From the NCBI RefSeq assembly GCF_022347785.1, contig NZ_JAKRGA010000001.1, positions 930,001 through 994,000 of the forward strand: 64,000 bases of DNA, read 5' to 3'. Position 1 is the first letter of the stretch, and every line of letters starts with the position of its first letter. The DNA is from Psychrobium sp. MM17-31 (GTDB lineage Bacteria > Pseudomonadota > Gammaproteobacteria > Enterobacterales > Psychrobiaceae). This document shows positions 3,552 through 23,291 of the stretch, one piece after another. The translations under genes were made by a program, and so were the position numbers. Under the pieces are notes generated by a model. It saw only the letters and a list, made by a program, of their open reading frames with translations, was not told the DNA's origin and searched no databases.

Positions 3552-5198
3552 TTACTTATCACCTTCAACTAGTGCTCTCAACTGCGCCATAAAGGTATGT
3601 TCGTTTTCATTGTTCGCCAACACTACTTGTTCCGATAAAATATCACTTAGAATTTCATTGCTGGTTAACGGGTTGGCTAACACCACTCGAAATACAATAA
3701 TCGATTGATATTGATAATATGACGGGGTTAATTTAGTACGAGAAACGAATGCCTTACCGTGCCCACGTTGAATTTTTTGCAGGTATTTAGTGAAGCGATT
3801 AAGCAAATCATTAATGGCTACGCGTGATTCTTCTGAGCAAGTTTTCAAATGCTCTTGCACCCAAGCCGGACAATAGCGATAAGTCAGAATATTTAATGTT
3901 GGCTCATTACACAGCTCAAACTCACCGTGAGCTTTAATCATATCGGCAAAGCGATGCGTCTTGTTAATTCCCTCTTCAATCAACAATTCATAACCGCTGC
4001 GACCTAAGATCTTAAGCCCAGAATGCACTAACATTGCCATGCCAGGACGTGAGCCTTCAAGGGTTTTACTACCTAAATCTTTCGAGCCCTTACGAATAAT
4101 GTAGTTTGCGTGGTGTTCGACGCCACTGAGAACATCTGGCGACTTAAATACAACAATACCAGCGCCCATAGGCACATAAAGCTGTTTATGGGCGTCGATA
4201 GTCACAGAGTCTGCTCGTTCAATGCCGGACAATAATGGTGCGTATTTCTTCGAGAACAGCGTTGGTGCGCCCCAAGCGCCGTCAACGTGGAAGTGACAGT
4301 CGTATTGCGCTGCAATATCCGCCATTTCATTGAGAGGATCAACAGTGCCTGTTTCTGTCGTTCCAGCAACGCCAACTAAGGCCAAGATTTTTATCTTGTT
4401 ATCGGTAAGTTGCTGACACTTTTCTTTAAGCGAAGTTAAACAGATTTGATTATTGTCATTGGTCGGTACGGCAACGATATTATCCATCCCAAGTCCCAAA
4501 ACATCAGCTGTTTTCTTTAATGAATAATGGCCGCGTTCACTGACTAAAATCGCAGCGCCGCGATAACCGTAATGTAATAGTGCGCCTAATAAACCTGTTT
4601 TTTGGATGCCAGCAAAGTTTTCTGTTGGCGCAAAAGCATTGTTACGCGCAGCCCATAAAGCGGTAATGTTGGCTACAGTTCCGCCAGAACAAAACGCCCC
4701 TAAGGCATAGTTTTGATCATGCATATAGGTGTCATAAAAACCATCGTCGCTATTATAAACGAGTCGATGCAGCATACCGATGACTTGGCGCTCAAGCGGA
4801 GTAAAGGATTTTGACGTTTCGGTTTTAACAAGATTTTGATTAAGGGCAATCATAATCTTCGACAACGGCAGCATAAAATAAGGCAGTGCCGAGGTCATAT
4901 GGCCAACAAAACTGGGCGAAGCCGTATGAACAGAATGAGCCACCAATTTTTCTAATAAAAAGTCTGCTTGCTGAGAAACGAAAATAGGATCATTAGGGAT
5001 TGATGCATCGGCAAAGTCTTTTTCAACTTCAGCCAAATCTTTTTCAACCGCAACGATATGAGATTGCAGAAAACCCTCTAGGTTTTCCGAGATCTCTTGC
5101 TCAATTCTACTTAACGTCGATTCCTTATCTTCGGGTACAGTAAATACCCGCAGTAGGCTATCTTGAGTAGCGCTAGCTTGACGTGTGGTTAGACTCAT
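3552..5198 (-). CDS. panP: PanP, pyridoxal-phosphate aspartate 1-decarboxylase
   Basis: A group II PLP decarboxylase (548 residues) of the PanP type, which makes beta-alanine from aspartate for pantothenate/CoA synthesis and replaces pyruvoyl-dependent PanD in Vibrio, Shewanella and relatives. The Schiff-base lysine is K338 in IDAHKQLYVPMGAG. Before it come FCSGGTVANITALWAARN and HVDGAWGAPTLFS, which form the cofactor pocket. The full-length alignment to PanP is from memory of the family; a glutamate or DABA decarboxylase activity cannot be excluded by sequence alone. It is monocistronic and starts at ATG 5198 behind AAAAGA. Confidence 0.9.
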   Translation of the reverse strand: MSLTTRQASATQDSLLRVFTVPEDKESTLSRIEQEISENLEGFLQSHIVAVEKDLAEVEKDFADASIPNDPIFVSQQADFLLEKLVAHSVHTASPSFVGHMTSALPYFMLPLSKIMIALNQNLVKTETSKSFTPLERQVIGMLHRLVYNSDDGFYDTYMHDQNYALGAFCSGGTVANITALWAARNNAFAPTENFAGIQKTGLLGALLHYGYRGAAILVSERGHYSLKKTADVLGLGMDNIVAVPTNDNNQICLTSLKEKCQQLTDNKIKILALVGVAGTTETGTVDPLNEMADIAAQYDCHFHVDGAWGAPTLFSKKYAPLLSGIERADSVTIDAHKQLYVPMGAGIVVFKSPDVLSGVEHHANYIIRKGSKDLGSKTLEGSRPGMAMLVHSGLKILGRSGYELLIEEGINKTHRFADMIKAHGEFELCNEPTLNILTYRYCPAWVQEHLKTCSEESRVAINDLLNRFTKYLQKIQRGHGKAFVSRTKLTPSYYQYQSIIVFRVVLANPLTSNEILSDILSEQVVLANNENEHTFMAQLRALVEGDK

Positions 5199-5444
5199 TC
5201 TTTTTTATACTCTAATAATTATACTGCGATTTACGGTCGCAAATTTTCCACAATCTATCACTTACCCCAAATTGTTACCAGCCTGCGATGTTAATCTTTG
5301 AACTCAATCGTCCAAGTCGCCTAAAAAAAACGCAAAAAATTACCGAAATGTCGCAATATCTCCGCTGTTTTTTTAAATCTTGTCTACTATTAACAAATCA
5401 ATCAGACAAGGAATTTACCATTGAACAAACTATCGGAGAATACT

Positions 5445-5783
5445 ATGCCAGAATTAGAGTGTCGTCGTGAAGGTGTTCGTGTAGCTGTTAAGAATGAGGA
5501 TCACATTGAAGCGATCATCTATACAGAGCAAGGTGTACCAGAGTTTTGCGATGAATATGAAATCAATTTAGGGGGCATCAAGGTTAATACGGACTTTAAC
5601 GAAATAAAGAATCGGCGTGTTCGCGTCAGCTTATTCGATAATAAAGAGCAGCGAGTCGAAATAGAAAGTACCATCGTTAGCTCGACAATGCGTAACTCAA
5701 TCATTAAGTTCGACCCCCTCGATCAGCAGCAATACGCCACCTTATGCTCCATGCTAACCTTACAACAGCCAATCGAAGAATAA
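5445..5783 (+). CDS. Small PilZ-like protein, function unknown
   Basis: A 112-residue soluble protein. The start at ATG 5445 is preferred because CGGAGAA lies 5-10 nt upstream; an in-frame TTG at 5421 would add eight residues. It carries R-E-G-V-R near the N-terminus followed about 38 residues later by INLGGIKV. This resembles the RxxxR ... D/NxSxxG signature of c-di-GMP-binding PilZ domains, but the serine is missing and the spacing is short, so binding is doubtful. The predicted fold is mostly beta. It lies alone between divergent panP and a shared terminator with pgi. Confidence 0.55.
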   Translation: MPELECRREGVRVAVKNEDHIEAIIYTEQGVPEFCDEYEINLGGIKVNTDFNEIKNRRVRVSLFDNKEQRVEIESTIVSSTMRNSIIKFDPLDQQQYATLCSMLTLQQPIEE

Positions 5784-5793
5784 TATTTTCTAT

Positions 5794-5835
5794 AAAAAAC
5801 GCCGCCCATTTCAACACGAAATGGGCGGCGTTTTT
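5794..5835. terminator. Bidirectional terminator between the PilZ-like gene and pgi
   Basis: A perfect 11-bp stem (CGCCGCCCATT with AATGGGCGGCG, extendable with the flanking A and T runs) around a CAACACG loop. Both flanks are homopolymeric, so it can end both convergent transcripts. Confidence 0.92.
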
Positions 5836-5854
5836 ATTTTAACAGCTCTCCTCG

Positions 5855-7504
5855 CTACTTGCCGTAACGCATCTCTTTGTAATAGTTAATCAGGTTGGTA
5901 GTTGATGAGTCGTGCTCGCCAACAGTGCCATCTTGCGCTAGCTCATCTTGAATCTTCACCGCTAAACCTTTACCTAATTCAACGCCCCACTGATCAAACG
6001 AACAAATCTGTAAAATAATACCTTGAACGAAGATCTTGTGTTCATACAGCGCAATCAATGCGCCCATGCTTTGTGGGTCGATACGATCAAGCAAAATAGT
6101 ATTAGTAGGTCGGTTACCTTGATGCACCTTATGTGGTGCAAGCTTATCGATATAGGCTTGAGTACGCCCTTTTGCTTTTAAATCTTCGCGAACTTGTTGC
6201 TCATTCACACCACACATTAATGCTTCTGTTTGTGCAAAGAAGTTACTCATTAATGTTTCATGATGTCCTTTCACCGGTGTAGTACTTTCAATTGAACCGA
6301 TAAAGTCTGCTGGAATAACGTTTTTGCTTTGGTGTAAATACTGATAAAACGCATGCTGACCGTTGATACCGACACCGCCCCAAATTGAAGGTACGGTTTG
6401 ATATTCAATATCTTCCCCCGTCCAACTTACCGACTTACCGTTTGACTCCATTTCTGCTTGTTGCAAATAAGCCGCCAGCATGTGCAGAGTTTGATCATAA
6501 GGTAAAATCGCTTGTGACTGGCAACCGAGGAAGGTGGTATTCCACAAGCTGATTAAGGCGAGAATAACAGGCGTGTTTTGCTCTAGTGGCGTATCAATAA
6601 AATGCTGATCCATTTCATGGGCGCCTTCGAGTAATTGCATAAATTTCTCAAAGCCCATATCCAACGCAATCGGTAAACCAATCGCTGACCATAGTGAGAA
6701 ACGACCACCAACCCAATCCCACATCGAGAATAGGTTATCGGGATGAATACCGAAATTAGTGGCGTTTTCTAGATTCGATGTTACCGCCACAAAGTGATGC
6801 TTCACTGCTTCGTCATCAAACGAAGATGAAGTTAACCAAGCGCGAGCCGTTTTGGCGTTAGTAATGGTCTCTGTGGTGGTAAATGTTTTACTCGATACAA
6901 TAAAGAGTACGTTTTCAGGATTCAGTGGACGTAATACTTCGGCAATTTGCGCGCCATCGACATTTGAAATGTAATGGACATCTACCGTGCTATCGTTGTG
7001 ATGTTTAAGTGCTTCAGTCACCATTTGCGGCCCTAGGTTTGAACCGCCGACACCAATATTTACCACATCGGTAATGCGCTTACCGCTGTAACCTTTCCAC
7101 TCGCCTTGACGCACTTTACGCACAAATTCTTCCATTTTTGCCAATTCGGCATTGATGGTTTCGGTAACGTTTTCGCCATCGACGATTAAATCTTTACCGC
7201 TGCGATCGCGAAGTGCTGTGTGCAATACCGCACGTTGTTCGGTTTGATTGATTTTCTCGCCGCTAAGCATACGCTCGCGCCAGCTTTCAACTTCACATTC
7301 TTTGGCTAAATTAATCAGCCCAGCCATGGTTTCGTCGGTAACGAGGTTTTTCGAATAATCAAACAACATGTTTGGAAGTTTGATTGAGAATTTATCAAAG
7401 CGCTGATTATCTGCGGCAAATAAATTATTGAGATGTTTAGATTTCATCTCAACGGCATGTTGAGTAAGAAACTTCCAGCTAGATAGCGCTTGACGATTTT
7501 TCAT
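5855..7504 (-). CDS. pgi: Glucose-6-phosphate isomerase
   Basis: Cytoplasmic glycolytic and gluconeogenic enzyme that interconverts glucose-6-phosphate and fructose-6-phosphate. Family signatures are clear: VNIGVGGSNLGPQM (sugar phosphate loop), SKTFTTTET, GGRFSLWSAIGLP and WGVELGKGLA near the C-terminus with the catalytic lysine. Starting at ATG 7504 (MKNRQALSSWKFL) gives 549 residues, the E. coli length, with AGGAG upstream. An earlier ATG at 7528 would add eight residues and contain that ribosome binding site, so it is less likely. Confidence 0.95.
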   Translation of the reverse strand: MKNRQALSSWKFLTQHAVEMKSKHLNNLFAADNQRFDKFSIKLPNMLFDYSKNLVTDETMAGLINLAKECEVESWRERMLSGEKINQTEQRAVLHTALRDRSGKDLIVDGENVTETINAELAKMEEFVRKVRQGEWKGYSGKRITDVVNIGVGGSNLGPQMVTEALKHHNDSTVDVHYISNVDGAQIAEVLRPLNPENVLFIVSSKTFTTTETITNAKTARAWLTSSSFDDEAVKHHFVAVTSNLENATNFGIHPDNLFSMWDWVGGRFSLWSAIGLPIALDMGFEKFMQLLEGAHEMDQHFIDTPLEQNTPVILALISLWNTTFLGCQSQAILPYDQTLHMLAAYLQQAEMESNGKSVSWTGEDIEYQTVPSIWGGVGINGQHAFYQYLHQSKNVIPADFIGSIESTTPVKGHHETLMSNFFAQTEALMCGVNEQQVREDLKAKGRTQAYIDKLAPHKVHQGNRPTNTILLDRIDPQSMGALIALYEHKIFVQGIILQICSFDQWGVELGKGLAVKIQDELAQDGTVGEHDSSTTNLINYYKEMRYGK

Positions 7505-8310: not shown

Positions 8311-8473
8311 ATACCAATTGTGTTAATTAAGTGATCAATTTTGTAACGTGGATAAATGGATTAGAACAAGGCATTTATTTTGATAAATAGTTCTTCTATT
8401 AATGAAATAAATAACGCAGTTATCATCCATTTAGTCCGTGAAAAATGATTAAAGAGTTAATACAATTGGTATG
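8311..8473. mobile_element. MITE-like element with 27-bp imperfect terminal inverted repeats
   Basis: The left end begins ATACCAATTGTGTTAA and the right end is TTAATACAATTGGTAT, its near-perfect reverse complement. Similarity continues weakly inward (TGATCA versus TGATTA) over about 27 bp. A second, inner inverted pair (TAAATGGAT / ATCCATTTA) makes the roughly 163-bp element foldable along most of its length. It has no coding capacity. The size, end structure and A+T richness fit a non-autonomous miniature transposon. Target duplications are not obvious, and I found no second copy in the window. Its right end touches the cobalamin riboswitch. Confidence 0.65.
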
Positions 8474-8600
8474 TCATTGGGAATGAAGTGAAAATCTTCA
8501 GCTGTACCCGCAACTGTGAAGTTAGTAAAGCTAACTAAGCCAGATACTAATGCGCCATACACAATCCAAATTGAATCTTAAACAAGCGGAGTACTTGGGT
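8468..8600 (+). promoter_or_regulatory. Cobalamin (B12) riboswitch upstream of btuD-btuC-cobTSO-btuF
   Basis: The conserved core is present in order: GGGAAT, GTGAAAATC, GCTG, then the B12 box CCCGCAACTGTGAA, a small variable hairpin (GTTAG/CTAAC) and GCCAGATAC. Such elements turn down cobalamin transport and synthesis genes when adenosylcobalamin is plentiful. The segment to about 8600 (including CAAG...CTTG and GGGTAAGCGATCCCC) is the likely kissing-loop and expression platform. The 5' GGTAT that pairs with ATACT lies inside the terminal repeat of the adjacent MITE-like element. Confidence 0.9.
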
Positions 8601-8655
8601 AAGCGATCCCCTGCCAATTAACATTGAGCAGCTATTGCTTGCGCGCTATTTTTAC

Positions 8656-9510
8656 ATGCCATCCATTATCGACATCAAGCAGCTGTGCTGGCACATCGAC
8701 CACAAAACCATTCTCGATAAAGTAAGTTTAACTATCGACAAGGGTAACTTTGTTGGTGTTATTGGTGTTAATGGCAGCGGCAAAACGAGTCTTTTACGCA
8801 GTATTTATCGGGTATTAAAGCCCACATCCGGACAAGTTCATATTAATGGTGAGGATATTTGGCGACAATCATCCATCGACGTTGCCAAGCAAATTGCGGT
8901 AGTGAGTCAATCAAACACCCCATTGCCCTATCAAGTACGCGATGTTATTGCGATGGGGTTAATTCCTCACAAAAAATTGTTTGAACAAACCAGCGCACAA
9001 GACAAACAGCAAATCAATTTGGCAATCGAGCAGCTCGATTTACAGCATTTAACAACCAATAATTTCGACACCCTATCGGGCGGCGAGCAACAGCGTGTGC
9101 TTATTGCCAGAGCCATGGTGCAACTCGATTATCAAGGTGACTTGCACAACCGTTTATTGGTGATGGACGAGCCCACTAATCATCTGGATATTCACTATCA
9201 AATCGATTTACTCAAACGAGTAAAACAACTTGGCTGCACAGTTTTGGTTTCACTGCACGATCTCAACATGGCAAGCGCCCACTGCGATGAAATCATTTTG
9301 ATCGACAATGGCAAAATTATCGCTAAAGGTACACCCGAAGTCGTGTTAACACCGCAGATAATCAGCGATGTTTATCAAGTGGAAGTCGATGTTATTTCTC
9401 ACCCTCGCCACCAGCGCCCTCATCTGCTTTTTAGTGAACAGAAAGTTAGTGAAAGAAAAGCTGGTGAAAAGAAAGTGAATGAAAAAAGAGGGAGCGCAAG
9501 TAATGACTAA
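8656..9510 (+). CDS. btuD: Cobalamin ABC transporter ATP-binding protein BtuD
   Basis: ATP-binding subunit of a FecCD-type importer (284 residues). Walker A is GVNGSGKTS near residues 37-45, the signature is LSGGEQQR, Walker B is LLVMDEPTNHLD, and the switch histidine lies in VSLHDLNMA. ATG 8656 (MPSIIDIKQL) is preferred; a TTG at 8635 is possible. The C-terminus is an unusual Lys/Glu-rich tail (SEQKVSERKAGEKKVNEK) built from short DNA repeats and looks non-functional. First gene behind the riboswitch; it overlaps the permease gene by 8 nt, so the two are translationally coupled. Confidence 0.9.
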   Translation: MPSIIDIKQLCWHIDHKTILDKVSLTIDKGNFVGVIGVNGSGKTSLLRSIYRVLKPTSGQVHINGEDIWRQSSIDVAKQIAVVSQSNTPLPYQVRDVIAMGLIPHKKLFEQTSAQDKQQINLAIEQLDLQHLTTNNFDTLSGGEQQRVLIARAMVQLDYQGDLHNRLLVMDEPTNHLDIHYQIDLLKRVKQLGCTVLVSLHDLNMASAHCDEIILIDNGKIIAKGTPEVVLTPQIISDVYQVEVDVISHPRHQRPHLLFSEQKVSERKAGEKKVNEKRGSASND

Positions 9511-10504
9511 AACGCTCTCCATCACTATGTTGCTGTTTATCAGCTGCGCATTATCGATTGTCGCAGCCTTAAGCCAAGGGGCGATCGCCATTGACTTTCA
9601 CGATGTAATCGGCTCACTGATTCCTGCATTGGCCAACGGTCCAATTGACCCAATTATTACGCAAATCGTTACCGAGCTGCGATTACCACGTATTTTATTG
9701 GCGCTGTTATCAGGTGCTGGACTTGCCATTGCAGGTGCCACTTTACAACAAGTAACCCGCAATCCGCTGGCGGATCCATTTTTATTTGGTATTTCAGCGG
9801 GCGCGTCCTTCGGTGCCGTTATCGTGTTAACCACCCTAACCAATCTCGCCATTTTATGGTTACCAATTGGCGCCTTTGTCGGTGGTTTACTGTCGGTGGC
9901 CATGGTGTTATTTATTGCAGGACGCAGCAGTTATCAGCAAATCGAGCGTATGCTACTTGCCGGTGTAGCCAGCTCATTTATGTTTAGTGCCGCCACCAGC
10001 GCTATTTTATATCAAAGCGATCCGCAGGCCGCCGCCTCCATTTTATTTTGGACACTTGGCAGTTTTTCCCAAGCACAATGGGATCAATTATTGTGGCCAA
10101 CGCTAGTTATTAGCCTCAGCATCATTGTATTTTTCGCCTATTCTCGCCAAGTACTTGCCATCTCTGGCGGTGATGAAAATGCCACAACCTTGGGCGTTTC
10201 CGTATCGAAAGTCCGATTATTAATGCTAGTGCTAAGTTCGCTTATCTGTGCGGTTATCGTCGCCAATGCCGGTGGCATTGCTTTTGTTGGATTACTGATC
10301 CCTCATGTCGTGCGCCTAACCTTGGGCCAACGCATGTTAAACAATTACTTTATTATTGCCTTACTCGGCGCAACCTTTATGATTTTGGTGGACTTGGCAG
10401 CACGTACGCTGATTCCCAATCAAGAAGTGCCATTGGGAATTATTACCAGCGCCATCGGTAGTATCTTTTTTCTGTTTATTCTTAAACAACGCCGTCAATA
10501 CTAA
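9503..10504 (+). CDS. btuC: Cobalamin ABC transporter permease BtuC (FecCD family)
   Basis: Inner-membrane permease of 333 residues with about ten hydrophobic helices. Family hallmarks are RLPRILLALLSGAGLAIAGA near the N-terminus, NPLADPFLFGISAGAS and the GGIAFVGLLIPHVVRL segment. ATG 9503 is chosen over ATG 9479 because GGGAGCG lies just before it and the shorter protein begins directly with a hydrophobic helix. Sequence alone does not separate B12 from siderophore permeases; the riboswitch and the neighbouring cob genes make cobalamin the likely substrate. Confidence 0.88.
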   Translation: MTKTLSITMLLFISCALSIVAALSQGAIAIDFHDVIGSLIPALANGPIDPIITQIVTELRLPRILLALLSGAGLAIAGATLQQVTRNPLADPFLFGISAGASFGAVIVLTTLTNLAILWLPIGAFVGGLLSVAMVLFIAGRSSYQQIERMLLAGVASSFMFSAATSAILYQSDPQAAASILFWTLGSFSQAQWDQLLWPTLVISLSIIVFFAYSRQVLAISGGDENATTLGVSVSKVRLLMLVLSSLICAVIVANAGGIAFVGLLIPHVVRLTLGQRMLNNYFIIALLGATFMILVDLAARTLIPNQEVPLGIITSAIGSIFFLFILKQRRQY

Positions 10505-10527
10505 TTAAAAAACCAGTGAGAACAGCT

Positions 10528-11568
10528 ATGGACTTTATCGCCCCGCTCAACAAAGCAAAACAACCGCTTATCGAGGCGCGTATTAACAATAAAACCAAGC
10601 CCTTAGGCTCTTTAGGGCAGCTTGAATCACTTGCAATACAACTGGCACTTATACTTGACGCGGACAACCCGCAAATTGAAAAACCAACACAATTGGTATT
10701 TGCAGGCGATCACGGCGTAAGTAAATTAGGTATTTCCATTGCTGGCCCCGAAGTGACGGGACAAATGGTGGCTAACTTTTGTCATGGCGGCGCGGCTATT
10801 AATGCGTTTTGTAGCCAAAACGATATGCAATTGTTCGTGGTCGATTGCGGCACAGTTGTCGAGCAACCTGATCACCCAATGCTTATCAAACAACGTATCG
10901 ATAGCACGACCAAAGCCTTTAATACCGCGCCCGCGATGACAGATGATCAAGCACAGCAAGCTATCGATTTTGGTAAACAAGCGGCAGTAAAAGCGCTAGC
11001 AACAGGTGCCAACGTCATTGGAATTGGTGAAATGGGCATTGGCAACACCACCTCCGCGGCGGCGATTATGCATTTTATTACCAAGCAAGAAATCGACTAT
11101 TGCGTCGGTCAAGGCACCGGTGTCGACAAGCAAACCATCGCCCTTAAAAAACAAATTATCATGAAAGCCGCCAGCCTTCATCGCAATAATTTAGACGATG
11201 CCTTTTCAGTGCTAACACAGGTTGGTGGTTTTGAAATCGCGCAAATGGTAGGAGCAATGTTAGCCATTGCGGAAGCGGGCAAGGTCATTATTGTCGACGG
11301 CTTTATTTCTACTGCTGCAGCATTGGTTGCCAGTCAAATGTCTGAGCATGTGCGGGATTACATGATCTTTAGCCACTGCTCTTATGAACTTGGCCACACC
11401 TTAATGCTCAAAGAGCTCGATGCCGAGCCTGTGTTAGATCTTAACTTGCGCCTCGGTGAAGGCAGCGGCTGCCCATTGGCACTGCCAATTTTGCGCAGTG
11501 CATTGGCATTTTACAACCATATGGCCAGTTTCGAACAAGCCAGTATTAGCGTCGTTCAACCGGAATAA
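10528..11568 (+). CDS. cobT: Nicotinate-nucleotide--dimethylbenzimidazole phosphoribosyltransferase CobT
   Basis: Makes alpha-ribazole phosphate from nicotinate mononucleotide and a benzimidazole base, activating the lower ligand of cobalamin. The 346-residue sequence has the NKTKPLGSLGQLE N-terminal motif, FAGDHGVSKLGIS, GEMGIGNTTSAAA and the C-terminal RLGEGSGCPLALP with the catalytic glutamate. A GTG at 10516 could add four residues, but ATG 10528 matches the family N-terminus. It follows btuC by 23 nt and precedes cobS by 8 nt in the same operon. Confidence 0.95.
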   Translation: MDFIAPLNKAKQPLIEARINNKTKPLGSLGQLESLAIQLALILDADNPQIEKPTQLVFAGDHGVSKLGISIAGPEVTGQMVANFCHGGAAINAFCSQNDMQLFVVDCGTVVEQPDHPMLIKQRIDSTTKAFNTAPAMTDDQAQQAIDFGKQAAVKALATGANVIGIGEMGIGNTTSAAAIMHFITKQEIDYCVGQGTGVDKQTIALKKQIIMKAASLHRNNLDDAFSVLTQVGGFEIAQMVGAMLAIAEAGKVIIVDGFISTAAALVASQMSEHVRDYMIFSHCSYELGHTLMLKELDAEPVLDLNLRLGEGSGCPLALPILRSALAFYNHMASFEQASISVVQPE

Positions 11569-11576
11569 TAACCGCT

Positions 11577-12386
11577 ATGAGTGCCGAGCAGCAATCGACG
11601 AATCCGATTAAACACCAATGGCGTTTATGGTGCATCGCTTTGGGATTTTTTACCCGTATTCCGGTTAAAGAAATTCCTAATTTTCAGCAAGCATGGCTCA
11701 ATCAAGCCAGTCGTTATTACGGGCTGGTAGGGTTATTAGTTGGCGCGATTGCAGCGCTGACATGGTATCTCACCAGCCAATTATGGCCATTAGCGATTAG
11801 CGTGATCTTATCGATGATCGCCAGCGTATTAGTCACAGGCGGTTTTCACGAAGATGGCCTTGCTGATACGTGGGACGGTTTTGGCGGTGGCTGGAGCCTT
11901 GAGCAAAAGCTCACTATTATGAAAGACTCCCGCTTGGGTACGTATGGCGCACTGGCACTTATCTTAGCGGTATTACTCAAGTTTCAATTATTGGTCAGCC
12001 TAACCCAATACAACCTAGATTGGCTCAACCTCAATTTAATTATCGTCGCTTTACTGGTGGGTCATTGTTTAAGCCGAGTCACCGCGGTGAGCCTGATCTT
12101 TGATCAAACCTATGTCCGTGATATAGATTCAAGCAAAGTAAAACCGATGACCGAGTCACAAAGTGCCACCGAAATCATCGTGTTATTGTTAAGTGGACTT
12201 TTGCCACTAGCCCTGCTGCCATGGCAGCTTTCCCTGATGTTAGTAGCGACCTTAATCCTTTGTCGCCAACTTATTGTGCTTTGGTACAACAAACAATTAG
12301 GCGGTTATACCGGCGATCTACTTGGACAAGCACAACAAATCAGCGAATTGGTTATCTATTTAACGCTTTTGGCGTATTACAGTTAG
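11577..12386 (+). CDS. cobS: Adenosylcobinamide-GDP ribazoletransferase CobS (cobalamin synthase)
   Basis: Integral membrane enzyme (269 residues, about six or seven helices) that joins adenosylcobinamide-GDP and alpha-ribazole or its phosphate. The defining metal-binding motif is intact: GGFHEDGLADTWDGFGGG near residues 82-99, followed by IMKDSRLGTYGALAL. The substrate adenosylcobinamide-GDP is normally made by CobU/CobP, whose gene is not in this window. The gene follows cobT with an 8-nt gap. Confidence 0.95.
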   Translation: MSAEQQSTNPIKHQWRLWCIALGFFTRIPVKEIPNFQQAWLNQASRYYGLVGLLVGAIAALTWYLTSQLWPLAISVILSMIASVLVTGGFHEDGLADTWDGFGGGWSLEQKLTIMKDSRLGTYGALALILAVLLKFQLLVSLTQYNLDWLNLNLIIVALLVGHCLSRVTAVSLIFDQTYVRDIDSSKVKPMTESQSATEIIVLLLSGLLPLALLPWQLSLMLVATLILCRQLIVLWYNKQLGGYTGDLLGQAQQISELVIYLTLLAYYS

Positions 12387-12397
12387 AGGAAAATCAC

Positions 12398-13006
12398 ATG
12401 AGTGATAAAGAACAGATTAAAAAAGAAAAACACCAACAGCGCCAACAAAAACTCAAAGAAAGCATTGACGCTAAAGTGGCCAAAGCCACCAAAGAGCAAG
12501 GAGTATTTATGGTCATTACCGGTAACGGTAAAGGCAAAAGTACCGCTGGTTTCGGCACAGTTTTACGCAACGTTGGCCACGGTCAAAAAGCCGCTGTAGT
12601 CCAGTTCATTAAAGGTCAATGGCCTTGTGGTGAACGCAATGTATTAGAAAAACTCGGCGTTAAATTTTGTGTCATGGGCACAGGCTTTACTTGGAATACC
12701 CAAGATCGCGAACTCGATACCCAAGCGGCACAAGCAGCATGGCAAGATGCTAAAGCTATGCTCGCCGACGAATCGTTAGATTTAGTATTACTCGACGAGC
12801 TAACCTATATGGTGAGCTATCACTATATTGATGTTGAAGAAGTGGTAGCAGCCATTAAAAATCGTCCACCGATGCAACACGTCATTATCACAGGCCGCGC
12901 TTGTCACAGAGCACTGCTTGACATTGCAGACACAATCAGTGAAGTAAAACCTACAAGACACGCTTTTGATAACGGCGTTAAAGCGAGGATTGGTTTTGAT
13001 TACTAG
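12398..13006 (+). CDS. cobO: Cob(I)yrinic acid a,c-diamide adenosyltransferase (CobO/BtuR)
   Basis: Transfers the adenosyl group of ATP to the reduced cobalt of corrinoids. The 202-residue protein has the P-loop variant GNGKGKST at residues 42-49, PCGERN, a LDLVLLDELTYMV Walker-B-like segment and a C-terminal TRHAFDNGVKARIGFDY, all as in BtuR/CobO. ATG 12398 follows AGAGGAAAATCAC. The lysine-rich N-terminus (residues 1-32) is helical and unusually charged. Its 3' end overlaps the start of btuF by about 11 nt. Confidence 0.94.
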   Translation: MSDKEQIKKEKHQQRQQKLKESIDAKVAKATKEQGVFMVITGNGKGKSTAGFGTVLRNVGHGQKAAVVQFIKGQWPCGERNVLEKLGVKFCVMGTGFTWNTQDRELDTQAAQAAWQDAKAMLADESLDLVLLDELTYMVSYHYIDVEEVVAAIKNRPPMQHVIITGRACHRALLDIADTISEVKPTRHAFDNGVKARIGFDY

Positions 13007-13838
13007 ATTAAAACAACTATGGCTTATCGCCAGCTTATTTGCCGGGACCACAAGCTGGGCAGTAGCTAACGATAACTATCCACAGCGCATTATTGCCTTA
13101 TCGCCGCACGCCGTTGAAATGCTTTATGCGATTGGCGCTGGTGATAAAATCGTAGCCACTATTTCCCATGCCGACTACCCAGAAGCCGCCAAAGCAATTG
13201 AAGTGATTGGTGATTATCGCGGCATTACCTTAGAAAAGCTCATTAGCTTAAAGCCCGATCTGGTAGTGACTTGGCCGAGCGGCAATAAATTTAATCAAAT
13301 CGAGCAAATTAAAAAACTTGGCTTTAAGGTATTAGCGTCCGATCCCACAACGCTAGATGAAATCGCTAGTGATATTCGCAGCCTAGGTAAAGCCACAGGC
13401 AATCAAACTCAGGCGGAGCAAGTCGCCAACAGGTTCGAGCAAGATTTAGCAAAAATCACCGCCCAATACCAATGGCGCAAGCCCGTTAAAGTGTTTTATC
13501 AATTGTGGTCAAAACCACTGATGACCATTAGCGGCGATAGCTGGATCAGCCAATTTATTTCACGTTGTGGCGGTATTAACGTGTTTAAGAACGCTGATAG
13601 CCCGTATCCGAAGGTCAGTACTGAGAACGTGTTACTGACAGGTGCAGAGGTTATTTTAGTACCAGAAGATAAAAACACCCGCGGCCATGAGCTCTACGAC
13701 TGGCAACATTGGCAATTATTACCCGCTGTAAAGAATGACCACATCTATCATCCTGATGCTAAGGTGCTTCACCGCCCAACAACACGGGTACTCACGCCGA
13801 TGAAAGAGGTGTGTGAGTTTATAGAAAAAGCTAGGTAA
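12996..13838 (+). CDS. btuF: Cobalamin-binding periplasmic protein BtuF
   Basis: Class III substrate-binding protein that delivers cobalamin to BtuC-BtuD. A signal peptide (LITRLKQLWLIASLFAGTTS, cleaved about WA-VAN) is followed by PQRIIALSPHAVEMLYAIGAG and the YRGITLEKLISLKPDLVV hinge region typical of BtuF/FepB folds. I prefer TTG 12996, seven nucleotides after an AGGA, which overlaps cobO by 11 nt. A TTG at 12966 would add ten residues before the signal peptide. The product is then 280 residues, close to E. coli BtuF (266). Last gene of the operon. Confidence 0.87.
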   Translation: MITRLKQLWLIASLFAGTTSWAVANDNYPQRIIALSPHAVEMLYAIGAGDKIVATISHADYPEAAKAIEVIGDYRGITLEKLISLKPDLVVTWPSGNKFNQIEQIKKLGFKVLASDPTTLDEIASDIRSLGKATGNQTQAEQVANRFEQDLAKITAQYQWRKPVKVFYQLWSKPLMTISGDSWISQFISRCGGINVFKNADSPYPKVSTENVLLTGAEVILVPEDKNTRGHELYDWQHWQLLPAVKNDHIYHPDAKVLHRPTTRVLTPMKEVCEFIEKAR

Positions 13839-18636: not shown

Positions 18637-18665
18637 AAAAAGCCCGCTTGTTTACAAGCGGGCTT
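18637..18665 (-). terminator. Terminator of the btuB-lipoprotein operon
   Basis: AAGCCCGCTTG and CAAGCGGGCTT form an 11-bp stem around a TTTA loop. On the - strand it is followed by TTTTTG, so it ends the transcript of the lipoprotein gene. Confidence 0.9.
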
Positions 18666-18683: not shown

Positions 18684-19910
18684 CTAGTCTAAAAAGCGAA
18701 TAACACCTGGATTAAGCTCAGTCAGTAGACGGTCGCCTTCTTTTTGGTTAGTCGCCGTGTTGATTACATCAATACCCGGCGTTGATGGGTTAATAGTACT
18801 TACCCATAAGAAGTTAGAATCATCAACGCTAATAAACGAAATTTCTTCGCTACCAGTCTCAGCAATATTGCTCGCGACAATCGCACCAGTTGATGGGTTG
18901 AACTCGTATAAAGCAGAGGTTGTTACCCATTTTCCATCATCGTTAAAACCAGCTTTACTCGCCACAAAATAGCCCTTGCTGGTTGAAACAATTTCACTAG
19001 TCGTAATAAAGGCATCGGTGTTATCAGCAATGTCTGCCGCACTTAATACTGTTGACGTTGAGTAATCTGACGTTTCAATCTTCTCAATCATACTCAAACT
19101 TAAATCGGTATTGCCGAAAACGCTACGCGATGTGACATAAACATCACCAAAGGCCGCTTTAAGGTTGTGTTCAAGCGGGTTTTGGCCAGTTAACTTAATG
19201 CCTTTAACGCCATCATCAGCAGTGTGATTTGTTTCAATTTCTGTGTCAGTCGCTACATCAAATACCGCAACATAAGCAGTGTTTGGTGCCCAAGCGTCAG
19301 ATAAACGCTGCATTGTAATGTAGAGTTTACCGTCAACGACAACACCTGCAGATGGCGAAGGCGTTGTGCTGTTATTTTCTGGAATGTATGAACCAAGATC
19401 CAATTCGCCAATTTTAAAGTCAGCTGCTTCAGTTGCGTTTGGATTAACGATCCATACCTTTGATGAGCCGTAGCGGATCAAATACGCTTTATTGGCATTA
19501 GCAAATACTAAATTGTACGGGTTTGATGATGCAGTTTCGCCCTCATCCTTGGTGCCGTATGAGTAAATCTGCGCATCTGGTGCATCGCTGTTGTACTTTT
19601 CAACGGTATCAATAAAGAAACGGCCAATGTGGTACACGTCTTTACCGTAGCTTGTTAAGGTGTAATCTGATTTATCCTTTACGTAGTAATCGCCCGCAAC
19701 TGATTGATCGTTGAGATCTAAATAAGCCACTTCTGAGCTAGAGTAATCAGGCGCAATTGTTTGTACTACGGCTTTCTTTGGTACAACAGGCACGATATCT
19801 TTTTTAGTATCGCTACTGCCGCCACAACCCGCTAATAAACTAACACTGGCCGCAAGGGCTAACGATAACGCAGTGCGCTTAGCGCTAGCACCCGATTTAA
19901 AATAACTCAT
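18684..19910 (-). CDS. Beta-propeller-like lipoprotein, candidate BtuG-type cobalamin-binding partner
   Basis: A 408-residue lipoprotein: the signal sequence ends in LLAGCGGSS, with the lipidated cysteine near residue 29. The rest is rich in repeated beta segments of about 45-60 residues (for example AYLIRYGSSKVWIVNPN, VVVDGKLYITMQRL, FISVDDSNFLWVS), as in YncE/YVTN-type propellers. It follows the BtuB-like receptor gene by 5 nt behind a cobalamin riboswitch. In Bacteroidota, BtuG is a surface propeller lipoprotein that binds B12 and sits on BtuB. The same role is inferred here from context and fold-like character, not from demonstrated homology. It could instead be periplasmic. Confidence 0.72.
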   Translation of the reverse strand: MSYFKSGASAKRTALSLALAASVSLLAGCGGSSDTKKDIVPVVPKKAVVQTIAPDYSSSEVAYLDLNDQSVAGDYYVKDKSDYTLTSYGKDVYHIGRFFIDTVEKYNSDAPDAQIYSYGTKDEGETASSNPYNLVFANANKAYLIRYGSSKVWIVNPNATEAADFKIGELDLGSYIPENNSTTPSPSAGVVVDGKLYITMQRLSDAWAPNTAYVAVFDVATDTEIETNHTADDGVKGIKLTGQNPLEHNLKAAFGDVYVTSRSVFGNTDLSLSMIEKIETSDYSTSTVLSAADIADNTDAFITTSEIVSTSKGYFVASKAGFNDDGKWVTTSALYEFNPSTGAIVASNIAETGSEEISFISVDDSNFLWVSTINPSTPGIDVINTATNQKEGDRLLTELNPGVIRFLD

Positions 19911-19915
19911 GGTAA

Positions 19916-21883
19916 TTACTCCTCAAAAGAAAACTTAATAAATAGATTGCGCCCCTGTGCAGGACGGTTTGCGAGATCGCGATAGGTTTCATCAAACAGG
20001 TTATTAACCCCGATATTCACGGAAAATGATTGTTGCTGCCAACGCAGGTTAACGTCACTAAGCCAGCGATCACTCGGATTGCCATTACCCTGTGCTTGCT
20101 GCTCAACCTTGTTGGCTAAATTAAAATACAGTCCTTCGCTATATTGGCTCGACGCATCAAGTGACCAATGCTGCGTTAAATCCGCGCTTAATTTGACGCT
20201 GTATTCGCGATGATAAATGCCCGGCAGCTTTTTGTTATTGAAAGCGACAAACTCAGACACGCTGTTGCTGTCGATAAAATTAGCCTGCCCTTGTAACGTA
20301 ATCGCATCGGAAATTTGATAGTCCGCTTGTAATTCAAATCCTGAAATATCAGCGTCATTAACGTTGCCATAACTACCAATACCCGATGAATTAAAGGTCG
20401 CGACTATGGCGTCTGATACCTGCTTTAAATACACAGCGGAGTTCACAGAAAAACGCGCCGCCTGATAATTAGCGCTCAGAGAAACTGCATTAGATTGCTC
20501 AGGCTTAAGGCTGTCATTTCCTTTAAATAATCCGCGGTCACCAAAACGCTCAAACATTGTCGGCATACGGACACCGCGACTAAGTGATGCGCCCCAATCG
20601 ATACTGCGCCAGCTATACTGCACTGCAAGCTCACCAGAAACAAAATCACTATCGTTTTGTTTAACTGCGCCATCACTATTGAGCGCTCTATTACGACTCT
20701 CTTCACGTAACTGACTTATCAACACATGAGCTGACAACGGCTGCTTGTTACTTTTCCAGTCACCGCGACCACCAACAAGCCATTGCTCAACTGTCGCCTT
20801 AACGTCACAAGCGCTAATGCCATTACAGTTAATGGTCTCGCCGTTAACCTGTGTTTTTGATGCAAAGGCTTGACGATTAATATCGATAAATGGCGTTAAC
20901 GTCCACTGCTCTAATTGCCACGTTGGTTTGACTGACAGACTGGCTTTCTCGCTGTCATAAAAGCCATCGCGACGCGCGAGTTGCGGTACATTATCGATAT
21001 AATGCTCATCGCGTTTATCGAAGTAACCTTCCACTTCAAGTTGCGACAACCTCGAATTTACTGGATTATATAAGTAAGTAAGTGCCAACCTCGATTGCTC
21101 TAAATCGATTGACGAATTGTTGTTAGGCACATTAATTTGATAGTGAGGCAATGCTTTATCTTGATTGCTGAATTGACCGTTAAGACGCAGCTGATTTAAA
21201 TCGCCAATCCACAACGCATTGGCCGAAAACGTCGTCTTTTCAAATCCATTATTGCGTAGTGGCTCAACCGTTGGCTCGGTCGGGTTAGCAATTGGTTGCG
21301 GCACTAAATAATCATAATCATTGTCACTTGTGACGTGATTGAGCCCAATCGCCCCTTGAAAACTACCAGCGCGAATATTTTTAAGGGCATTCAGCTCCTG
21401 ATAACCAAAAGAACCAATACCCGCACTCAACCGCAATGTCTTGCGCTCAGGATTGTAAGTATTAATGCGGATCACACCGCCTATTGGCGTTGCCCCACTG
21501 CCAATTGCCTGCTCTTTACTCACTTCAATTGATTGGATGTTTTCGACGGGAAGCTGGTTTAAATCAAAACCGCCAAACTGGCCATCGTTCACCAATTGGC
21601 CATCAATATATAATTGCACTTGCTTGGAGGATGAACCGCGAATAGATACGGCTGCTGGATTGCCAATACCGCTAATTTGCCGAACTTGAATACCATTGAT
21701 TTGATCGAGAATATCATTGAGGTTTTGCGCACTATCCACAAAGTCATCGCGACTTAATACGATATAGTTAGCACTTTGTTTGAGCCGCTCGCCGCTAATA
21801 GCAATACGCTCAATGTCTTGCGCCCATAACGAAGAGGAAGTCAAAATAGCACAACTAGTTATGGAAATAGATTTTAGCGACAT
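19916..21883 (-). CDS. btuB: TonB-dependent receptor, BtuB-like cobalamin transporter
   Basis: A 655-residue outer-membrane receptor, similar in size to BtuB (about 600). Signal peptide residues 1-21 (ending LWA), a TonB-box-like IERIAISGE, and a plug domain with LNDILDQINGIQVRQISG, VSIRGSSSKQVQLYIDGQ and SIEVSKEQAIGSGATPIGG. The beta-barrel ends in a terminal aromatic (IKFSFEE region). Cobalamin as the substrate is inferred from the upstream riboswitch and the short BtuB-like plug. The next gene, 5 nt downstream, encodes a propeller-like lipoprotein. Confidence 0.88.
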   Translation of the reverse strand: MSLKSISITSCAILTSSSLWAQDIERIAISGERLKQSANYIVLSRDDFVDSAQNLNDILDQINGIQVRQISGIGNPAAVSIRGSSSKQVQLYIDGQLVNDGQFGGFDLNQLPVENIQSIEVSKEQAIGSGATPIGGVIRINTYNPERKTLRLSAGIGSFGYQELNALKNIRAGSFQGAIGLNHVTSDNDYDYLVPQPIANPTEPTVEPLRNNGFEKTTFSANALWIGDLNQLRLNGQFSNQDKALPHYQINVPNNNSSIDLEQSRLALTYLYNPVNSRLSQLEVEGYFDKRDEHYIDNVPQLARRDGFYDSEKASLSVKPTWQLEQWTLTPFIDINRQAFASKTQVNGETINCNGISACDVKATVEQWLVGGRGDWKSNKQPLSAHVLISQLREESRNRALNSDGAVKQNDSDFVSGELAVQYSWRSIDWGASLSRGVRMPTMFERFGDRGLFKGNDSLKPEQSNAVSLSANYQAARFSVNSAVYLKQVSDAIVATFNSSGIGSYGNVNDADISGFELQADYQISDAITLQGQANFIDSNSVSEFVAFNNKKLPGIYHREYSVKLSADLTQHWSLDASSQYSEGLYFNLANKVEQQAQGNGNPSDRWLSDVNLRWQQQSFSVNIGVNNLFDETYRDLANRPAQGRNLFIKFSFEE

Positions 21884-21999
21884 AACGCCCTCAACAGCAC
21901 ACAGAGGACATAAGAAAGATACGCGCAGCGAATAAAAGGCGAATGCCCAGCGCGCAGATATTTCTTTCTATCGCCCTCCGCAATAGTATAGATAGATAG

Positions 22000-22150
22000 A
22001 CTAAGGCCGGTATCGGACTGTTATTCAACACATTGAATAAATCACCGTTGCGGGGGCAGCGAAGGAATGTCACCTTACTTCCCGTTTACCCTAAGCCCTC
22101 AACATTACTTAAAATCACCGTATCGCTGAGTCTTAGGCACCTCAATTAAT
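22000..22150 (-). promoter_or_regulatory. Cobalamin riboswitch upstream of the btuB-lipoprotein operon
   Basis: Read on the - strand the element has GAGGTGCCT, GGGTAAACGGGAAG, GGTGACATTCC, GCTGCCCCCGCAACGGTGAT and AGTCCGATACCGGCCT in the canonical order, so all core parts of a cobalamin riboswitch are present. Between it and the start codon lies a long imperfect hairpin (about 21912-21970, AAGAAAGAT ... TTTCTTTCT arms) that probably belongs to the expression platform. Confidence 0.93.
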
Positions 22151-22334: not shown

Positions 22335-23291
22335 ATGACCACCAGCGCAATACAAGCTATTCGACAAATCGATACTGAAAATATCGAGGCATTAGGTCGG
22401 TTCCACCTCAACAAAAATCGTGATTACACCCAATTTCAACGTGGTAAGTTCAAGGCAAATGCCACTGAAATCACCCTCAACCAAGCGCAAATTCTGCGAG
22501 AAAGTTTCAACCTAGGCACTCGGATCGAAGCGACACCAGCAGATTGCTTTTTGCCTTTTGCAGTGGTTATGCCCCATTCAAGTGATTACCAATTTTGTGG
22601 CCAGCAAGCGCAAGGCAACCCATTTCTTCAAGCCAGTGGCGGAACATGGGAAGTACACTCTCAGCAACGACTCGACTATGTTGCCACTGTATTTTTGCGA
22701 GAGCACTTTATAAAAAGTTATCACTCACTTACTGGAAGAGAACCAAATAGCAATGTCATTAGTAGTAGAATGGCCCAAACATCAAGTCAATTACAATGGC
22801 AATACGCGCGGCAAGTGTTAGAAGTAACCCAGCAACTTTTAGTACAGCCAAGTTTGTTAGCAGACGATAATATTCAACGAATGGTGTGCGCTCACTTATT
22901 GCGATTAACCATAGATATAGTTAATGACTCGCTCGCACTTCCGGAACCGTTAACTCGACACAACAAACGCCAGCAGGGCGTAACTCGCGTCGTTGAATTT
23001 CTTAGAGAAAATGCCCATTTGCTGCCAGATATCACGCAATTGTGTGATATTGCTCAGCTCAGTGAACGGTCATTGCAATATGGTTTTAAGGAAAAGTACG
23101 GCGTAACACCTGTTCAATACTTGCGTTTGATTAGGTTAAATGGCGCTCACAAAGCCCTACTAAATGCCGATAAGAGCACAACAACTGTCGCGCAAATCGC
23201 CTTAAACTGGGGTTTTGTTGAGTTTGGTCGTTTTTCCCGTGATTATAAATCGCTGTTTGAGCAACTCCCCTCTCAAACGCTCATTTCGTGA
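22335..23291 (+). CDS. AraC-family regulator with EutR-like layout
   Basis: A 318-residue regulator. The C-terminal third (about residues 215-315) is an AraC DNA-binding domain with two helix-turn-helix units: ITQLCDIAQLSERSLQYGFK and TVAQIALNWGFVEFGRFSRD. The N-terminal 200 residues have the layout seen in EutR-type regulators, and EutR itself responds to adenosylcobalamin and ethanolamine. It is divergent from the riboswitch-controlled btuB operon. Control by or of B12 is therefore a reasonable inference, not shown. Its 3' end overlaps the convergent HDOD gene by 19 nt. Confidence 0.8.
   Translation: MTTSAIQAIRQIDTENIEALGRFHLNKNRDYTQFQRGKFKANATEITLNQAQILRESFNLGTRIEATPADCFLPFAVVMPHSSDYQFCGQQAQGNPFLQASGGTWEVHSQQRLDYVATVFLREHFIKSYHSLTGREPNSNVISSRMAQTSSQLQWQYARQVLEVTQQLLVQPSLLADDNIQRMVCAHLLRLTIDIVNDSLALPEPLTRHNKRQQGVTRVVEFLRENAHLLPDITQLCDIAQLSERSLQYGFKEKYGVTPVQYLRLIRLNGAHKALLNADKSTTTVAQIALNWGFVEFGRFSRDYKSLFEQLPSQTLIS

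Follow-up and report, generated by a model that had tools for sequence, protein, structure and literature searches.

The closest described systems to the locus reported here come from Bacteroides. In Bacteroides thetaiotaomicron, BtuG1, BtuG2 and BtuG3, like the kindred 3DSM protein, are propeller lipoproteins that accompany the vitamin B12 receptor BtuB and a cobalamin riboswitch, and the negatively charged face of BtuG2 binds the positively charged cofactor (PMC10404256). The XusB/XusA pair of Bacteroides likewise joins a propeller lipoprotein to a TonB receptor (PMC13142918), the B12-binding protein BtuK1 of B. thetaiotaomicron (9s6c) has a similar propeller, and eight clades of a B12-binding DUF4465 family have been described (PMC13398666). 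Escherichia coli likewise has a B12 receptor together with periplasmic and ABC parts (BtuB and BtuCDF), but according to PMC6143338 and PMC10404256 its BtuB has no lipoprotein partner. Homologues of btuG were found exclusively in Bacteroidetes in a BlastP survey (1e-10) that covered 313 genomes from the human gut (PMC6143338), and lipoprotein-capped TonB transporters are seemingly exclusive to the same group (PMC10404256). Here, we describe a locus in a 64-kb stretch of DNA (the window) from the gammaproteobacterium Psychrobium sp. MM17-31, in which a cobalamin riboswitch precedes genes encoding a BtuB-like receptor and a 408-residue lipoprotein, and we present evidence that this lipoprotein is probably a distant relative of BtuG.

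Results

Organization of the operon

The receptor and lipoprotein genes lie on the minus strand of the window, in the following arrangement:

21988..22134, minus strand: Cobalamin riboswitch aptamer (RF00174), 50.1 bits (cut-off 31.5), covering the full model (1-189)
21884..21987, minus strand: leader from the aptamer to the receptor start codon, containing a long predicted hairpin
19916..21883, minus strand: BtuB-like TonB-dependent receptor, 655 amino acids, with Plug and beta-barrel domains
18684..19910, minus strand: BtuG-like lipoprotein, 408 amino acids, predicted to fold as a beta-propeller; lipobox LAGC, Cys29
18640..18665, minus strand: terminator-like stem-loop 3' of the lipoprotein gene, with an 11-pair stem and a T-rich tail

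The receptor stop codon and the start of the lipoprotein open reading frame (ORF) are separated by 5 nt. Folding of 281 nt gave z = -2.87, and the leader hairpin is a possible expression platform. Because the terminator-like stem is accompanied by a T-rich tail (18665-18640), the operon probably ends after the lipoprotein gene. A preliminary description of this DNA had proposed a complete riboswitch ahead of a BtuB-like receptor, closely followed by a propeller-like lipoprotein; the gene order and the riboswitch are confirmed here, and the propeller is borne out by structure prediction, as follows.

Predicted fold and homology of the lipoprotein

The structural model of the lipoprotein (pLDDT, the predicted local distance difference test, 88) is a beta-propeller. 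When 979 PDB chains were aligned to this model, the eleven top entries by Z were all BtuG proteins (Z 29.8-32.9), BtuG1 being the best match; the next protein reached 28.0, XusB 26.3 and BtuK1 25.3. Among the solved folds compared, the modelled propeller is closest over its whole length to that of BtuG, at 10-19% identity in the structural alignments. A natural circular permutation in one relative supports a closed ring fold: in L057:5893-7083, from an uncultured Oleiphilus metagenome-assembled genome, profile positions 113-392 come first and positions 39-113 are C-terminal, and a rotated copy of the protein gives a single profile match over 39-392.

Searches of Pfam and NCBIfam assigned the window lipoprotein to no family. 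The apparent homology to BtuG is weak and is met only stepwise, through desulfobacterial relatives. Between a profile of nine of these (A6) and the gammaproteobacterial set, the alignment spans 366 columns (E 1.7e-60). In the PDB, A6 matches nine sequences with E-values from 4.8e-7 to 5.8e-6, the next match lying at 0.098. Seven of these sequences are identified as BtuG proteins, and 8puj and 8baz were counted with them since their alignments resemble those of 8okv and 8bai; the alignment of A6 with BtuG spans a common stretch of the form (S/N)P...KAY...I(V/I)NP. Weak matches to DUF5074 occurred among the relatives (3 of 39 members and 4 of the 9 members of A6), and the Psychrobium genome had no match to this family. 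A search of NCBIfam with the 39 members of alignment A2 (the window protein and 38 loci) returned just three scattered weak matches. No match was obtained with the divergent member L047 against PDB sequences or with the desulfobacterial member L124 against plasmid records.

Conservation of the receptor-lipoprotein pair

Thirty-nine relatives were collected by a pattern scan that was blind to the receptor. An ORF matching the window receptor was present in all 39 loci, a match that is unspecific in that TonB receptors generally match each other, and in 38 of them it lies directly upstream on the same strand. The exception is L045, in which the receptor is downstream, on the opposite strand and under its own riboswitch. 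A Cobalamin riboswitch scored above the Rfam cut-off in 29 of the 39 loci, and 23 contain further B12 uptake or salvage genes; the link of these loci to B12 therefore rests on the riboswitches and on the nearby uptake and salvage genes. Nine of the ten loci without a riboswitch at the gathering threshold (L021, L022, L023, L025, L029, L035, L041, L044, L053 and L055) are cut or begin close to the genes: the sequence breaks off within the receptor gene in L035, L044 and L055 and shortly before it in L053. L041 has 466 nt 5' of the receptor frame with no riboswitch, and the genomes of L029 and L041 yielded no Cobalamin riboswitch match. Sub-threshold elements were found for L022 (29.8 bits), L023 (31.0) and L025 (28.1), and their coordinates place them upstream of btuD, where the locus begins, on the assumption that the contigs are identical; a 27.1-bit element in the L021 genome could not be tied to the locus.

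Of the results that the preliminary description named as refuting, neither a fold other than a propeller nor homologues located mainly away from B12-regulated receptors was obtained. It had also suggested a survey of the synteny in Alteromonadales. The order riboswitch, receptor, lipoprotein does recur, but the family is much wider than that group and extends to Marinobacter, Alcanivorax, a Pseudomonadales metagenome-assembled genome and Desulfobacterota. A sample of 297 genomes from the phylum of G1097, to which the Desulfobacterales record L051 belongs, gave matches in 26, of which one is weak. Receptor ORFs are present in 18 of 20 desulfobacterial regions and Cobalamin riboswitches in 15 (10/14 and 5/6). 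No riboswitch was detected in L105, L106, L107, L110 and L121; the sequences of L105, L110 and L121 are truncated close to the genes, that of L110 at a contig edge. In L117 the riboswitch lies ahead of a second relative and not of the receptor, and L123 carries two relatives (5161-6932 and 11413-13206), each with its own Cobalamin riboswitch and with no receptor found within 16.5 kb. The desulfobacterial proteins of L045:5884-7359 and L051:2865-4088 have a signal-peptide-like start and no lipobox, and several other desulfobacterial relatives resemble these forms by eye. Extra domains occur in some, including PKD in L105 and L052.

The distribution of the lipoprotein gene is patchy. It is present in four of nine genomes of the genus, including the Psychrobium genome itself and one partial copy. 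In a sample of the class, 23 of 369 genomes match the lipoprotein profile; the Psychrobium genome, G425 (weak, 2.5e-4) and G737 (L080, XusB-like, see below) were set aside, and in each of the 20 remaining a neighboring ORF matches the window receptor. Matches in a sample of the order numbered 12 of 394 genomes. Those of G218 and G043, at about 20 bits, were too weak to be kept; the gene of G006 is partial, at a contig edge, and that of G169 is a fragment. This C-terminal fragment (L017:1315-1695) has short flanks in which nothing matches the window receptor. Within 398 genomes sampled from the phylum, only the Psychrobium genome itself gave a confident match, joined by two others at 1.6e-4 and 3.8e-4. 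As the profile searches scored few first-look candidates per genome, some genes may have been missed.

A lipobox pattern is found in 37 of the 39 loci, that of L050 being doubtful. All 39 proteins of alignment A2 are acidic, with net charges of -8 to -70. Acidic proteins are also common in marine bacteria. Furthermore, the distance matrices of receptor and lipoprotein are correlated (r = 0.92; none of 999 permutations as high) in a set of 35 of the 39 loci plus the window, from which L035, L044, L055 and L057 were excluded for length, contig edge or permutation. The alignment used for folding held 36 of the 39 loci plus the window (L045, L051, which has a masked stretch, and L057 excluded), and the receptor alignment 34 of the 39 plus the window.

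Identity of the receptor

The best NCBIfam model for the window receptor is BtuB (TIGR01779, 1.4e-28), at 99.8 bits against a cut-off of 599.7. No receptor among the 20 listed for the genome reaches this cut-off, and when they are ordered by E-value the window receptor comes third. Five paired receptors from other loci were checked as well; a BtuB model was the best for two (L026 and L037), no receptor scored above the cut-off of its best model, and none of the six, window receptor included, passed a BtuB cut-off. The case for a B12 receptor is therefore argued from the riboswitch and not from the score, and context counts as much as sequence in the label BtuB-like.

XusB-like proteins

A tblastn search of plasmid records with the window protein returned two Bacteroidota lipoproteins, from Phocaeicola (2e-7) and Prevotella (8e-8), which are 57% identical to each other. 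Both genes sit just 3' of a TonB receptor gene, and a Cobalamin riboswitch was not found in either of these two stretches. The Phocaeicola lipoprotein matches XusB (8.7e-8) and, weakly, BtuG (0.005), and its receptor matches 9gbc, XusA in complex with XusB, at 8.6e-66; the pair adjoins a 1558-residue ORF that reads by eye like a nonribosomal peptide synthetase. These two XusAB-like pairs occupy L125:5261-8948 and L126:5209-8957, on records filed as Bacteroidota plasmids. The window-family profile matches the XusB-like group at 9.8e-24 over 239 columns. Additionally, a genome of the same class as Psychrobium encodes a protein (L080) that is 34% identical to the Phocaeicola lipoprotein and lies behind a TonB receptor barrel (Pfam, 9e-26); this is a second lipoprotein-receptor pair outside Bacteroidota, probably with another ligand. 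BtuG, XusB and the window-type proteins look like branches of one receptor-paired propeller family, in which context and predicted fold would assign the window protein to the B12-regulated branch.

A second riboswitch and neighboring genes

Two Cobalamin riboswitches were detected in the Psychrobium genome, both inside the window. The second, 13 kb from the first, heads a cluster for B12 uptake and salvage (8437-13838):

8437..8571, plus strand: second Cobalamin riboswitch, 36.9 bits
8635..9510, plus strand: btuD-like ABC ATPase, so named from its context; its leading model matches include ABC ATPases for heme, F420-0 and corrinoids, none of these shown over its cut-off
9479..10504, plus strand: btuC-like permease, named by context; no model over its cut-off
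10516..11568, plus strand: cobT, above cut-off
11577..12386, plus strand: cobS, above cut-off
12221..13006, plus strand: cobA/btuR adenosyltransferase, above cut-off; the true start is probably internal
12966..13838, plus strand: btuF-like periplasmic B12-binding protein (2.6e-53), below cut-off at 180.9 against 234 bits

Divergent from the receptor operon is a gene for an AraC-type regulator (22335-23291, plus strand), to which EutR is a distant match (6.7e-25, below cut-off); an AraC-type gene is likewise divergent in L020. A role for the window gene as a regulator of ethanolamine use was considered and dropped, as a search of the Psychrobium genome for EutB gave no match while the E. coli control was positive.

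Discussion

We consider it likely, with a probability of about 0.7, that the 408-residue protein is a distant relative of BtuG, an outer-membrane, B12-binding propeller lipoprotein that serves the BtuB-like receptor as its partner. This reading draws on the operon and its riboswitches, the lipobox, the conserved pairing with a TonB receptor, the acidity of the family and a predicted propeller whose nearest solved relative is BtuG; from these we infer B12 as the ligand of both proteins, a surface location, a lid-like complex and the hand-over of the vitamin. By analogy with BtuBG (PMC10404256), low cellular B12 would allow the riboswitch to permit expression of the receptor and the lipoprotein, which would catch cobalamin or other cobamides on its acidic face above the receptor. 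The vitamin would then pass to the BtuB-like receptor for import powered by TonB, and BtuF-BtuCD together with CobT, CobS and CobA, under the second riboswitch, would complete uptake and salvage. The proposal of BtuG-type capture made in the preliminary description thus appears supported at the level of predicted fold, regulation and synteny. The window system differs from that of BtuG in its phylum and its low identity, at least two desulfobacterial relatives are not lipidated, and no BtuH, BtuJ or BtuK gene lies in the operon, the part of the genome in which they were sought.

Several observations weigh against this interpretation. A common propeller fold does not prove a common ligand, and at the sequence level BtuG is remote. 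The window lipoprotein retrieved no BtuG from PDB sequences, its sole match being a designed propeller (0.0072); gammaproteobacterial family profiles reach BtuG at just E 0.009-0.033 and 0.0035-0.013, outranked by repeat-rich propellers that serve other functions; and BtuG1 does not appear in the sequence matches of both gammaproteobacterial and desulfobacterial profiles. The two Bacteroidota proteins matched directly by the window protein are XusB-like rather than BtuG. As for the receptor, Z does not separate BtuB from YncD or PqqU in comparisons with its structural model, and the top Foldseek match of that model is the copper transporter OprC. Siderophore-receptor models were best for three of the five paired receptors checked (L048, L054 and L058), a result for which we lowered our confidence from 0.72 to 0.70, and at 1e-3 Pfam returned nothing for the receptor ORF of L078. 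Shared species history confounds the distance correlation, and common ancestry explains part of it. With regard to location, L045 and L051 lack a lipobox, the residues after the lipobox cysteine of the window protein (CGGSSDTKKDIV) contain, by eye, no evident export signal of the Bacteroidota type, and no export route for the lipoprotein is known in this host. Bacteroidota flip such lipoproteins by means of a phylum-specific signal described as exclusive to Bacteroidetes (PMC6143338), and because of this exclusivity its absence elsewhere decides nothing. A search of the Psychrobium genome for the surface-export protein Slam (PF04575) gave no match and is uninformative, as the control was also negative.

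Since the export signal is not evident and L045 and L051 have no lipobox, the main rival is a lipoprotein on the inner leaflet of the outer membrane that faces the periplasm and relays B12 from the receptor to BtuF, forming no lid. Outer-membrane lipoproteins of Gammaproteobacteria face the periplasm by default, and the forms without a lipobox, among them by eye several further desulfobacterial proteins, would be periplasmic unless exported further. We nevertheless judge such a relay unlikely, though it deserves serious weight: the genome already has a btuF-like gene, the nearest solved fold, BtuG, is a surface lid (PMC10404256), and the lipoprotein distances track those of the receptor, which contact in the periplasm would also produce. 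That the propeller serves another ligand, a siderophore or metal complex as in XusB, and stands under a B12 riboswitch by chance, strikes us as improbable; the direct matches to the Phocaeicola and Prevotella lipoproteins, the likeness of the Phocaeicola pair to XusB/XusA, the profile match to the XusB-like group and the siderophore-receptor models of the paired receptors speak for it, and XusB itself differs in siderophore binding (PMC13142918), in its lower Z and in the lack of a riboswitch in the two stretches above. Hardly credible, in our view, is a partner that folds or stabilizes the receptor and binds no vitamin. Such a protein would be expected to be tightly coupled to the receptor and to co-vary with it, but the L123 genes have riboswitches of their own and no receptor found in their stretch, the L045 receptor is encoded on the opposite strand behind a separate riboswitch, and the strong acidity recalls the binding face of BtuG2 (PMC10404256).

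Returning to a B12-binding partner of the receptor, our literature search found no such propeller system outside Bacteroidota, within a scope that omitted most subscription journals and all bioRxiv preprints, in line with the earlier remark that it is little described there. Three papers present BtuG, or TonB transport with a lipoprotein cap, as confined to Bacteroidetes, a view against which the window-type loci argue. We suggest, tentatively and at slightly less than even odds, that lipoprotein-capped TonB transporters are a cross-phylum module, marine Gammaproteobacteria and Desulfobacterota possessing lids of the BtuBG type or, in L080, of the XusAB type. B12 is scarce in the sea, and its capture at the surface of marine bacteria is little understood. 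With these loci the Bacteroidetes-exclusive view can be put to a direct test, and they prompt the question of how a lid would be exported in Pseudomonadota. Cross-phylum lids, if true, would imply either an unrecognised surface route for lipoproteins or a secreted or periplasmic lid partner.

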